From Aerococcus viridans (GTDB lineage Bacteria; Bacillota; Bacilli; Lactobacillales; Aerococcaceae), in NCBI RefSeq assembly GCF_001543285.1, contig NZ_CP014164.1, positions 682,001-746,000 of the forward strand: a stretch of DNA of 64,000 nucleotides, in the 5' to 3' direction. The notes below the pieces were generated by a model. It did no database searches. It saw nothing but the letters and a program-made list of their open reading frames with translations, and was not told the DNA's origin. Shown one piece after another: positions 25,481 through 29,332 of the stretch (its first letter is position 1; each line of letters opens with the position of its first letter). The position numbers and the translations under genes are program-made.

Positions 25481-27004
25481 ATGTATACTCAATATAACAT
25501 GAATCAAGCTTTTCTACCATTAGAGTTATCCGATTATCTTGCACCAAATCATATTGTTTTCCAAGTAAATAATTTTGTTGAACAGCTAGATGAACATATC
25601 CTCGATCAATTTTATAAACACGAAGGCCGACCGGCCTATCATCCATTAATCCTCTTAAAGGCATTACTATTCGCATATATAGAAAAGACGTTTTCAGGAA
25701 GAACTATTGAAAAAATGATGCAAGAGAACATTCCAATGAAATGGTTAGTTGCCGATACCGAAATTTCTTATCGTACGATTAATAGATTTCGTTCTAGTGA
25801 ATTATGTGCATCAATTCTTGAGAACCTATTCGTTGAATTTAAACTCTTTTTAGTTCAACAAGAACTAATCTCAGATAATGTAGTATTTATAGACGGTACA
25901 AAAATTGAAGCAAATGCAAATAAATATTCTTTTGTTTGGAAAAGAGCAACAGATAAATTTTACGCATCATTAAAAGCTAAAGAAATGGCATATTATAGAA
26001 ACGAAATATTACCTACTGTAGAAAAAGAGATTATCAAAGATGAAATTGATTCAATGTCTTTAAATGATGTTGAAATACTAAAAGACTTCCTTGAGGAAGC
26101 TGTAGCTGAGGTAAATGAAGAAATTGAAAGTACGCCAAAAAAAGGTGCAGATCCAAGAAAGCAGAAACGAAGAAAATTGAAAAAACACTTACGAAAAGTG
26201 AAAGATGATTTTTTACAGCGTGAGATAAAGTATGAAAATTATTATAGAACATTTGAAGGTAGAAATAGTTTTTCAAAAACAGATACAGATGCAACGTTCA
26301 TGCGAATGAAAGAAGATCCGATGCTAAATGGTCAACTTAAACCAGGTTATAATCTTCAAATAGCAACTGAAAATCAATTTGTTATAGCCTATAATATTTT
26401 TCCAAATCCTACGGATACACGTACACTATTACCATTTATTGAAAGTATGCCTACTTTACCTAAAATCGTCGTAGCTGATGCTGGATATGGAAGCCAAGAA
26501 AACTTAGAAACGTTGGACAATCTAGGGATTGATCATCTCATCAAATACAATATGTTTGATAAGGAACAGACGAAGAAATTTCAGAAATCAAGTAAGAATT
26601 TAAATAATTGGGACCATGATGCGGAAAATCAAATCTTTATTCACCCTGATGGTACACAGTATCATTTTCATCATGTTTATCATCCAAAAACAACAACTGG
26701 ATATCGCTTAGAAAAAGAAATGTATTATCCAGTCAATAGAGAAACCGCAACACAAAAGTCATTTTCTTTTAATAGAAAGTATCAGTATTTAAAAGAAAAT
26801 GAATCAGCTAAGCTATTATCTGAAGATGGCTCAGCTCTTTTCGCATGTAGAAAAATTGATGTTGAGCCGGTCTTCGGACAGATTAAACAAAACTTAGGAT
26901 TCCGAAGGACTCATTTAAGAGGAAAAGATAAAGTAAAAACAGATATTGGTCTAGTATTAATGGCTAATAACATTATAAAAGTTCAAAAGAGACTGATAAA
27001 TTAA
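25481..27004 (+). CDS. IS1182-family transposase
   Basis: 507 residues. The N-terminal part FLPLELSDYLAPNHIVFQVN and YHPLILLKALLFAY is typical of IS1182/IS5-type (DUF772) transposases. The DDE core shows VFIDGTKIEANANKYSF (first D), VVADAGYGSQENLE (second D) and VEPVFGQIKQNLGFRR (E). The gene looks complete. Its stop codon lies in the left arm of the right-hand hairpin. Confidence 0.93.
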   Translation: MYTQYNMNQAFLPLELSDYLAPNHIVFQVNNFVEQLDEHILDQFYKHEGRPAYHPLILLKALLFAYIEKTFSGRTIEKMMQENIPMKWLVADTEISYRTINRFRSSELCASILENLFVEFKLFLVQQELISDNVVFIDGTKIEANANKYSFVWKRATDKFYASLKAKEMAYYRNEILPTVEKEIIKDEIDSMSLNDVEILKDFLEEAVAEVNEEIESTPKKGADPRKQKRRKLKKHLRKVKDDFLQREIKYENYYRTFEGRNSFSKTDTDATFMRMKEDPMLNGQLKPGYNLQIATENQFVIAYNIFPNPTDTRTLLPFIESMPTLPKIVVADAGYGSQENLETLDNLGIDHLIKYNMFDKEQTKKFQKSSKNLNNWDHDAENQIFIHPDGTQYHFHHVYHPKTTTGYRLEKEMYYPVNRETATQKSFSFNRKYQYLKENESAKLLSEDGSALFACRKIDVEPVFGQIKQNLGFRRTHLRGKDKVKTDIGLVLMANNIIKVQKRLIN

Positions 27005-27048
27005 AAGAGAGGAAAAAGATTTCGAAGTGAAATCTTTTTCCTCTCTTT
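27004..27048. terminator. Right subterminal hairpin and terminator of the IS1182 copy
   Basis: A perfect 19-base-pair stem (27004-27022 with 27030-27048) with the loop CGAAGTG begins at the transposase stop. The right arm is pyrimidine-rich. It probably ends the transposase message and blocks inward reading from the other side. Confidence 0.85.
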
Positions 27049-27220
27049 ATTTAGTTAACTGAGCCTTTTTTGTCCCAGCCTCTTTTTTGTTTGGGTCTCC
27101 GACTTTTGGTGTGGATGAGAAATCATTCAAACCTATTTTGTATAAAAACACAAAAAGACATATGAATATTTCCTATGCTAAAATTTAAGCGTCTAAACCA
27201 AAATTAGAAAGGAAATTCAT

Positions 27221-28546
27221 ATGTCTCACAACGATAATATCAGACTTTTACTAAACATTAAAGATACTAACATCACATTTAACGAAGAAAATTGGATTCA
27301 AGAGCGTAATATTAAAGGAATAAATGTAAAAGTTTTTACTGGCACGTTAACCTACAAGCCCAAGGCTTGCCCTAAATGTGGTTGTATAAATGACCATTCT
27401 ATCGTTAAAGATGGGTTTATGACGTCTAGGATCACGTGGTTACGCCAATCCAATACACCAACCTATCTAGAGCTTAAGAAGCAACGCTTCTGGTGTCATG
27501 AATGCGATGAGCGCTTCATTGCTCATACCAGTGAGGTTGCACATAATTGTCATATCGCTAAACAAGTGAAACAATCTGTTTTAGTTGAGGCTGCAGATAC
27601 GATTTCAAACAAGGATCTCGCTCGTAGGCACTGTATCTCAGATAATACTAGTAGACGAATTATTAATCGCTTTATGGATGACTATTTTCGTCGCAATCGC
27701 ACAAAACTAGCGAAACACATGTGCTTCGATGAGATCAAATCTACAAAACAAGCTGACAATCAAATGAGTTTTATTTTTAGTAATGAGGATACTCATGAAG
27801 TTCTTGGTATACTGCCCACTCGACAACTATACAAATTAAGAGAATACTTCCGCCAATTTAGTTTAAAAGAGCGCTCTGCTGTTGAAACCATTGTTGTTGA
27901 TATGAATGCGCCTTATATGACTTTGGTTAGAGAAATGTTTCCAAACACCAAAGTAATTATTGATCGTTTTCATATCATTCAATTGATTTCACGTTCTTTA
28001 AACAAAACGAGAGTTCAAGTAATGAATACTTTCAATACAAATAGAAATCATGGTGAAGATAAAAAAGAGTATCGCAAGCTGAAAAGTTTTTGGAAGCTTA
28101 TCCTAAAGGATTTCAACGAAGTTGATTTTATAAATTATAGAAAACAACGTTTATTTAAAGGGAAAATGGTTTGTGATATGGATATTCTTGATCATCTACT
28201 TTCTTTAGATGAGGATTTAACGGAAAATTACTGGGTATATCAAGCTTTACTAGAGGCTTCTAAAGAAAATAATATCGAAATGTTTCATGAGACTATTACT
28301 GCAGAACGTCACCAAAATATCAGTAAATATATGCAAACCTCACTGAACACATTATTGAAGAATATAGCGTTTATCGCAAACACCTTCCATTACAAGACTA
28401 GATCAAACGCTAGTCTAGAAGGAAAAAATAATCGTATCAAAGTTATAAAATGTGTATCCTATGGATATCGTAATTTTTTCAATTTCAGAAATAGGGTAAT
28501 GATTAGTTTCATTTTAAAACCGGGCAAGCCCGCTTCCCTTAATTAA
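27221..28546 (+). CDS. ISL3-family transposase
   Basis: 441 residues. The N-terminal zinc-ribbon type CPKCGC and WCHECDERF, the helix-turn-helix SNKDLARRHCISDNTSRRII, and the DDE core CFDEIKST (D), VVDMNAPYM (D), followed late by NASLEGKNNRIKVIKC (E), are all of the ISL3 pattern. The gene is open throughout. AGAAAGGAA lies ahead of the ATG. Confidence 0.94.
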   Translation: MSHNDNIRLLLNIKDTNITFNEENWIQERNIKGINVKVFTGTLTYKPKACPKCGCINDHSIVKDGFMTSRITWLRQSNTPTYLELKKQRFWCHECDERFIAHTSEVAHNCHIAKQVKQSVLVEAADTISNKDLARRHCISDNTSRRIINRFMDDYFRRNRTKLAKHMCFDEIKSTKQADNQMSFIFSNEDTHEVLGILPTRQLYKLREYFRQFSLKERSAVETIVVDMNAPYMTLVREMFPNTKVIIDRFHIIQLISRSLNKTRVQVMNTFNTNRNHGEDKKEYRKLKSFWKLILKDFNEVDFINYRKQRLFKGKMVCDMDILDHLLSLDEDLTENYWVYQALLEASKENNIEMFHETITAERHQNISKYMQTSLNTLLKNIAFIANTFHYKTRSNASLEGKNNRIKVIKCVSYGYRNFFNFRNRVMISFILKPGKPASLN

Positions 28547-28573
28547 ATAAACATGATACATCCCGCTCGCTAT

Positions 28574-28713
28574 GTTCAAAGAAAAAAACTGCAAGTGTAC
28601 GTCCTTAGCCGTGAAAAAGCATGATATCGAGACCTTGGCTCGATATCAAGGCAGAGAGACCTTGGCTCTCGCCGGTGCCACGGCTCTTAAGGAACGTACA
28701 CAGCAGTTCAAAG
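28574..28713. other. Cloverleaf-like folded block inside the ISL3 copy
   Basis: An outer stem of 23 pairs with small bulges joins 28589-28613 to 28679-28706 (CTGC/GCAG, GTGTACGT/ACGTACAC, CCTTA/TAAGG, GCCGTG/CACGGC). Inside it are two hairpins: GATATCGAG/CTCGATATC (28623-28647) and GGC-GAGAG/CTCTCGCC (28650-28673). Both carry the same 7-base loop ACCTTGG. The inner part closed by GCCGTG/CACGGC is 77 bases, of tRNA-like size. Direct repeats GTTCAAAG (28574-28581 and 28706-28713) flank the whole. No reading frame of note. I do not recognise the family. It may be a structured RNA, a small inserted palindromic element, or a DNA target or recombination site. Confidence 0.7.
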
Positions 28714-28765
28714 GACAAAAAAGATAGTTCTTCTTTTATCAAATCTCATTTAAAATAAAATAAAA

Positions 28766-28804
28766 AAGAAACTCAAATCCATATAAAATGAATTTAAGTT
28801 TCTT
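28766..28804. repeat. Hairpin near the right end of the ISL3 copy
   Basis: AAGAAACT (28766-28773) pairs with AGTTTCTT (28797-28804), and the pairing continues imperfectly inward. The T run is on the minus strand, so it would end transcripts coming toward the transposase from the DUF3397 side. Confidence 0.55.
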
Positions 28805-28957
28805 GCTTAAATTAAGCTATCCACATTAAATGTCGAAGAGCCTTTTGTTTTCCTTTTCAAAGAAAAAATCATTCTAGACATTTTTAGCCATCTTAGCTAG
28901 TATTAATGGATGACAAACTTATGGTTGATACAGAAAACAAAGGAAAGGTTGACGATC

Positions 28958-29332
28958 ATGGCTTTCAAATGGAGCGAAATACTGTTTTATCTACTACCCA
29001 TCGTGAGCTTATTGCTTGTGGGTACAGTTGGAAAACCTTACCTCTACTTTAATAAGCGGATTAAATTTGCACCGATTGATGTGGTTTTTCCCATTCTTTT
29101 GGTTTGCCTCCACTTTATTTCCAAGGATTTATTATTATTTTCAATTATTCCCCACTTAGTGGTTGTGATTTCCTTGTTAGCGATTGGTGTTTTAGTTTGG
29201 CGTTTTGTGAGAAATCAAGAAGTTATTGTTGGAAAATTCTACCGCATGCTGGTAAATATTGCCTTCTCCTTTACGTTCATTCTTTATATGCTGGTAACCA
29301 TCTGCCGAATTATTCAAGTAGTGACAATGTAA
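28958..29332 (+). CDS. DUF3397 family membrane protein
   Basis: 124 residues with four predicted membrane segments (about 7-24, 40-56, 62-81 and 100-119). The family is found ahead of mraZ in Lactobacillales and has no known role. ATG 28958 has AAAGGT 8 bases ahead. An in-frame start at 28910 would add 16 polar residues without a site. The ISL3 copy ends about 115 bases upstream, so its native promoter may have been moved away. Confidence 0.8.
   Translation: MAFKWSEILFYLLPIVSLLLVGTVGKPYLYFNKRIKFAPIDVVFPILLVCLHFISKDLLLFSIIPHLVVVISLLAIGVLVWRFVRNQEVIVGKFYRMLVNIAFSFTFILYMLVTICRIIQVVTM

Follow-up and report, generated by a model that had tools for sequence, protein, structure and literature searches.

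A folded hairpin module shared by ISL3 insertion sequences and MITEs of Lactobacillales, with a possible role in their spread

The stretch of DNA analysed here (hereafter, the window) comprises 64,000 nucleotides of Aerococcus viridans contig NZ_CP014164.1 (positions 682,001 to 746,000) and carries an ISL3-family insertion sequence of 1750 bp, IS-A, at 27093..28842 on the + strand. As a first-pass annotation of this DNA had stated, the element is bordered by exact 8-base target duplications, TTTTGTTT, on both sides (27085..27092 and 28843..28850), a length that is a trait of the ISL3 family. IS-A is present in nine genome copies and encodes a transposase of 441 aa (27221..28546, + strand; PF01610, E 2.4e-46), and the block that concerns us lies between the transposase stop and the right end of the element. 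IS-A is adjoined at 25481-27083 by an element with a DUF772 and DDE transposase and ends TTTTGTCCCAGCCTC, which we take to belong to the IS1182 family. No module was found in this neighbour; ends of its type carry the module in an Aerococcus genome (G009) and in Granulicatella seriolae (G044).

The three-way-junction fold that had been proposed for the block was recovered at 28587..28708 (+ strand, outermost 6-pair stem included) by both RNA and single-stranded DNA folding. As RNA, 28560-28730 has a folding energy of -61.5 kcal/mol, whereas shuffles average -39.45 (z -5.9; 0 of 200 shuffles were as good), and as single-stranded DNA, 28582-28713 reaches a z of -9.1 on either strand. The outer stem stood as described except for its size, since we counted 25 pairs in place of 23: six in AACTGC/GCAGTT, eight in GTGTACGT/ACGTACAC, four in CCTT/AAGG and seven in AGCCGTG/CACGGCT. 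Along the + strand, the 5' strand of P1, GTGTACGTCCTTAGCCGTG (28595..28613), is followed by an A-rich joint (28614..28618); the 5' strand of P2, GCA, which in other lineages is GGA opposite TCC (28619..28621); arm 1, or P3, with the loop ACCTTGG at 28632-28638 (28622..28648); arm 2, or P4, with the loop ACCTTGG at 28659-28665, which is kept in the lineages read as its stem covaries (28650..28673); GGTGC, which is the 3' strand of P2 plus a linker and reads GGTCC in other lineages (28674..28678); and the 3' strand of P1, with a three-base bulge CTT at 28686-28688 (28679..28701). Direct repeats of GTTCAAAG lie outside the fold on the left (28574..28581) and overlap the stem by three bases on the right (28706..28713). 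A 13-mer, GAGACCTTGGCTC, occurs twice in the window and is little proof by itself, because two matches with at most two mismatches (0.6 expected) were reached in 9 of 100 shuffles. ARAGORN detected no tRNA in the block, in line with the earlier judgement that this is not one, and a tRNA-like reading was rejected. Nor did any Rfam family (Rfam 15) reach its gathering score over the block, also as anticipated, or anywhere else in the window; between 28000 and 29000, a lax cutoff (E up to 10) yielded weak hits that were unconvincing and at chance level. No T-run follows the stem on the + strand of the window block, which thus does not qualify as an intrinsic terminator, and CTCTTTT is often found 3' of the stem in the G. 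seriolae form of the module.

A DNA search of the window's genome (G000) located the block at 21 places, nine of them in IS-A copies (99-100% identical, the window's own included) and 12 in a second element, IS-B (85-90% identical to the window block). The IS-B transposase (474 aa; PF01610, E 3.2e-53) is only 34% identical to that of IS-A, and when the two elements were compared by blastn, the module was the only part that aligned. Duplications of 8 bases are exact in eight of the nine IS-A copies (not L021) when read by eye from GGGTCTC, with a script confirming one of the nine since its fuzzy left anchor fell three bases early in the others; by script, they are exact in 8 of the 12 IS-B copies, two having failed and two not having been parsed. 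A third ISL3 element, IS-C of genome G017, encodes a transposase of 420 aa (PF01610, E 1.2e-51) that is 39% and 48% identical to those of IS-A and IS-B, so that a DDE_Tnp_ISL3 domain is found in all three. The IS-C module has longer arms on the same plan (predicted fold z -6.3) and was first detected through a 35-base DNA match in arm 2 (E 5.7e-5); because the covariance model described below misses it at E up to 1, its membership is based on that match and the predicted fold. In IS-A, IS-B and IS-C alike, the module lies 3' of the transposase in sense orientation. The covariance model adds one long-armed copy in the window's genome (G000:C1:637905-638053). The same genome holds 18 Y1_Tnp (IS200/IS605 type) matches.

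A search for the module as an exact DNA pattern covered 395 genomes of the order and was positive in seven, each a member of the window's family (Aerococcaceae); the 50 stretches it picked out from the species collection came without exception from Aerococcus or Granulicatella. A covariance model built from 30 short forms, whose single confident match in the window is the block itself (28590..28705, + strand, 132.5 bits), was found in 18 of 76 genomes of the family, representing 6 of 21 genera, and in 15 of 148 genomes of the order, seven of which fall in two further families, f2 with six (best E 5.5e-9) and f6 with one (best E 4.7e-8). A draw from the class gave 2 of 250 genomes, both of the same order as the window, in a search that may lose weak matches. 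Thirty loci fetched from model matches matched the model again, as expected from their selection. Plasmids and phages gave no match to the window block, and two distant copies used as queries gave one weak match and none in plasmids; nine places of the long form fall in a single record, catalogued as a plasmid of Aerococcus tenax, where the match overlies no annotated feature. Several candidates were not counted as members: the viral contigs listed for the pattern GACCWWGGCN{4,10}GGTGCCA, which is too loose; eight matches in one genus (f4 g24), which appear to be a single short conserved stretch; and three further matches (g101, two; g118, one).

In distant copies the order of parts is the same: P1, A-rich joint, P2, arm 1, arm 2, GGTSCC, P1. 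From one lineage to another the stems are exchanged and still pair, whereas the ends of the arm-2 loop, the A-rich joint and the GGTSCC strand are retained. The pair of ACCTTGG loops, which had been taken as the hallmark of the block, is present in the window; as a defining feature of the module it was not supported. The arm-1 loop reads ACTAAGG in IS-B and ACTTTGG in L031, and the other lineages read have a longer, different arm 1. Since arm 1 varies by lineage, the twin loops belong to the short form only. A loop-loop contact between the arms was likewise rejected, as the pairs CCTTGG/CCTTGG, CTAAGG/CCTTGG and CTTTGG/CCTTGG are not consistently complementary; a protein bound at the arm-2 loop is possible. 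This loop mostly consists of A, then C or T, then any two bases and GG, closed by G-C, on a stem that is replaced between lineages, as in AGTTCTGAG-ACCTTGG-CTCAGAAC, AGTCTGGAG-ACCTTGG-CTCCAGAC, AGGAATTAG-ACTTTGG-CTAATTCC and AACCATCAG-ACCATGG-CTGATGGT. Several f2 copies have longer arm-2 loops, and loop length is therefore not fixed. P2 is GCA:TGC in 33 of 35 copies of G007 and 45 of 48 of G044, and GGA:TCC in 12 of 16 f2 and g3 copies and in G009, so that the switch occurs as a pair. An internal loop AATTA..TTTGA in arm 1 is shared by 33 of 35 copies in G007, 8 of 12 in G008, 11 of 16 in f2 and g3 and 1 of 4 in G015 (at most 0.6% in shuffles), and was found in none of 48 copies of G044 and none of seven from G016, G018 and G183.

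Paired-base changes around a constant loop, which had been named as a check of the fold, were found in arm 2 of the short forms, with some loop variation in distant copies. Among the 30 short forms, 93.5% of cells pair compared to 88.7% in shuffled and 30-41% in slid partners, and 11 of 40 pairs have changed on both sides, including 6 of 8 in arm 2. Their covariation score was 0.152 compared to 0.065 in shuffles, none of 500 being as high, in a test where relatedness between sequences can outscore shuffles; 12 of 500 shuffles attained the number of further pair types. In the 48 copies of G044, where left-arm identity between copies falls to about 0.5, P1 is 96.6% Watson-Crick and drops to 80.8% when partners are swapped between copies; the figure for G007 and G008 is 93.6%, against 85.2% and 87.0% when swapped. 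Together, the matched stem changes and the kept loop letters suggest that the shape itself seems to matter, probably for the spread of the element.

The module is also present outside ISL3, in MITEs with IS1182-type or ISL3-type ends; these have IS-like terminal inverted repeats, no transposase and, among the ISL3-ended ones, duplications, though not every copy has all of these, and some genomes score 40-50 module copies. In G009, the module matched 40 times (40 of 75 candidates scored), and among 31 places in 30 loci, 19 had full flanks, 15 of them with IS1182-type ends on both sides. Related ends, GGGCTGGGCAAAAAGTC, lie on both sides of 23 of 45 copies in G. seriolae, compared to 1 of 900 shuffled left flanks, and the other 22 have no IS1182 end pair at the threshold used. 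G007 gave 52 matches (partial ones counted) of a form with a long arm 1 that is also the form of G008, another Aerococcus genome, and the ends in both show at most a weak resemblance to those of ISL3 by local-alignment scoring. Among 16 distant copies (15 from f2, one from f6), nine have a left ISL3-like repeat (at least 15/24, reached by 0.6% of shuffled flanks), four of these nine have the right one too, and 12 of the 16 have no clear ISL3 end pair, the comparison being mildly circular in that the end consensus was drawn up after viewing L413, L414 and L433. Exact 8-base duplications surround the ISL3-ended MITE copies L413 and L421, and ISL3-ended MITEs with the module therefore exist beyond the window's family.

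The copies also bear on the GTTCAAAG repeats, which had been read as a duplication made by the block itself. Other short forms, read outside IS-A, are flanked instead by AGGACTG...ACTG.AAGGA, so GTTCAAAG is not a family-wide target duplication; the repeats in the window look like a decayed part of those flanks. Some copies hold further hairpins. In L117 (- strand), L072 and L126, arm 1 contains another hairpin repeat, AAACCTGCTCCAAAAGTC...GACTTTTGTC.CACTCTAA or a close variant, as a nested insertion near the TTTGA motif. Hairpins of the type GCCGTTGGAGCGTTAGCGACTTACGGATATAG were noted in L103, L120, L330 and arm 1 of L058; in some copies they break up P1, and arm 1 of the G017 module holds a similar one. 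Three copies at G007:C1:394671-395328 are about 237 bases apart in a tandem-like arrangement, and an Rfam RF01691 Bacillus-plasmid RNA (L410:931-999) lies about 100 bases from a module copy.

If the module were an inherent part of ISL3, it would be expected in related elements. The covariance model found none in five plasmid ISL3 relatives (transposase identity 38-47%), with the positive control L350 found, and none in six further elements that share 74% DNA identity with the IS-B transposase end and have a different short spacer where the module would sit. The spacer between transposase and right end is 41-134 bases in the plasmid relatives (measured for L349 from the end of the transposase match, not of the transposase) compared to 296 in IS-A, 340 in IS-B and 304 in IS-C. 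As related ISL3s lack the module (0 of 11, by a model that also misses the G017 module), we conclude that its ISL3 hosts acquired it, which agrees with the earlier proposal that the block entered the element and is not native to it.

The module is thus common to unrelated hosts and absent from related ISL3s, exact 8-base duplications surround some ISL3-ended copies, and the stems covary while loop and joint motifs are conserved. We hypothesize, at roughly even odds (about 0.5), that the block is a portable hairpin module, which forms the core of MITEs in Lactobacillales and a passenger in complete ISL3s, and whose fold aids spread. MITE cores with IS1182- or ISL3-type ends would be moved in trans by a fitting transposase, and complete ISL3s would have taken up the module as a passenger. 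The fold may act on DNA, as a cruciform or as a hairpin on a single strand, where it could bring the two ends close to each other and present a protein with the junction and the arm-2 loop. The best spreaders would then be copies whose fold is intact, and selection would act on spread, not on each inserted copy. Against this reading, the ends differ between hosts and many copies have no recognizable ends.

A possible, though clearly less probable, alternative is that the module functions as a structured RNA, which in ISL3s would form a 3' portion of the transposase message, acting on its stability or control, and in MITEs a small RNA or a cis element of neighbouring genes. Its asymmetric conserved single-stranded motifs (the A-rich joint, the arm-2 loop and the AATTA/TTTGA internal loop) and its sense orientation behind three ISL3 transposases are consistent with this idea. 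The neighbouring genes point both ways. Of 95 copies in G007, G008 and G044, five overlap an ORF of at least 90 aa, and the 82 with neighbours on both sides, counted without a genome-wide background, comprise 25 between convergent genes, 53 between co-directed genes and four between divergent genes; so few divergent cases would suit an RNA, whereas the co-directed copies show no sense preference (19 sense, 34 antisense). Transcription signals do not favour it: a scan of 27050-29000 found no + strand terminator-like site and promoter-like sites no more than in shuffles (8 compared to 7.5 expected in the region scanned, with terminator-like sites at 3 compared to 1.0, which is weak), and the block has no Rfam match. 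On the - strand (28649-28621), consensus matches of both the promoter-like and the terminator-like kind lie across arm 1.

Wobble pairs are usually far commoner in structured RNA. In P1 of G044, G007, G008 and the distant set, aligned with G-T and A-C scored alike, we counted 34 G-T and 27 A-C among 3030 pairs. Single stem changes in 27 G009 copies gave 16 G-T, 10 A-C and 20 other, with two double changes, and a looser count over 26 G009 copies with flanks gave 42 G-T, 36 A-C and three compensated. Arm 2 behaves differently, with 10 G-T and no A-C in G044, which speaks for RNA, 0 and 2 in G007, and 9 and 5 in the distant set, whose totals include L413 cut wrongly (4 pairs), several misplaced long-loop hairpins and three not found. 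All of these counts come from related copies and are not independent. The counts in arm 2 of G044 and the distant set lean to RNA. On balance, the stem changes favour a DNA-level role in spread over a host RNA, though as an indication and not as proof, because wobble pairs in the outer stem are about as rare as A-C mismatches.

It is unlikely that the module is functionless filler, that is, a set of old MITE cores alike by descent and gene conversion, with template switching keeping the stems complementary. Long palindromes are prone to hairpin-templated correction, which is expected to leave near-perfect Watson-Crick stems with few intermediates, as found here. At one orthologous site (L341 in one genome, L116 in the other), the element is inverted between the two Aerococcus genomes G007 and G008, which also fits filler. 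Change rates per site in G009 are 0.023 in stems and 0.035 in loops, and each copy is therefore at most weakly kept after insertion. On the other hand, two double against 46 single changes in G009 indicate that correction is not fast, the loop and joint motifs persist across families though the stems are replaced, and the module has moved between unrelated hosts.

Rather improbable, in our estimate, is a variant in which the module would be a folded nucleic-acid cofactor, in the form of RNA or of a single-stranded DNA hairpin, whose arm-2 loop binds the ISL3 transposase, perhaps that of IS1182 too, or else a host factor; it would thereby serve as a portable mobility enhancer for more than one transposase family.

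From 81 matches to the MITE left arm in G009, 30 loci were read, of which 22 hold the module, five end with their contig, one (L381) has a partial deletion and another (L401) passes into different sequence; the last, L396, reads GGACTGTAAGGAC, with the module cleanly absent and one ACTG left, and is either an empty site or a slippage loss. REP palindromes are linked with RAYT transposases; a RAYT mobiliser was rejected here, as no Y1 transposase fits, being absent from five of nine carrier genomes (G006, G007, G008, G017 and G040). That the module is a self-moving hairpin element with a putative recombinase of its own, inserting into other transposons, is least probable of all: its presence in unrelated hosts and the clean L396 copy would agree with this, yet L396 is one locus of the 30 and looks decayed, so that slippage between ACTG repeats suffices, the ends differ between hosts, and there is no candidate enzyme.

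Our literature searches found no description of this repeat, and the main text of PMC8040213 mentions neither Aerococcus, Granulicatella nor Lactobacillales. The nearest described things are the pneumococcal repeats BOX, RUP and SPRITE, which excerpts of PMC3049150 present as small, highly base-paired interspersed repeats of proposed parasitic nature; BOX combines boxA and boxC around inner boxB units, and RUP has IS-like ends and a proposed insertion in or near IS elements. Compared to those partial descriptions, the module is set apart by one core common to ISL3s, ISL3-ended MITEs and IS1182-ended MITEs across families, and by conserved loop letters with covarying stems. Prokaryotic MITEs, in the excerpted sections of a review (PMC10969869), have IS-derived ends, duplications, a stable stem-loop fold and an intergenic preference, whereas here a conserved structured core stands behind different kinds of ends. 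To judge from parts of PMC11208160, the module resembles the IS110 bridge RNA as a structured element inside an insertion sequence, but its host is a DDE ISL3 with no IS110 recombinase, no programmable loops have been shown, and the 11 ISL3 relatives tested lack it. It is similarly like the REP palindromes (PMC3733652) in being a dispersed hairpin, although several carriers have no Y1 transposase.

MITEs are usually viewed as ends plus filler; the core described here is folded, turns up in several families and behind the ends of unrelated insertion sequences, and has an outer stem that covaries with little wobble. Our findings also serve as a warning that strong covariation within mobile repeats need not imply RNA. 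If the fold does drive spread, the module would be a case on which structure-dependent propagation of non-autonomous elements could be tested.
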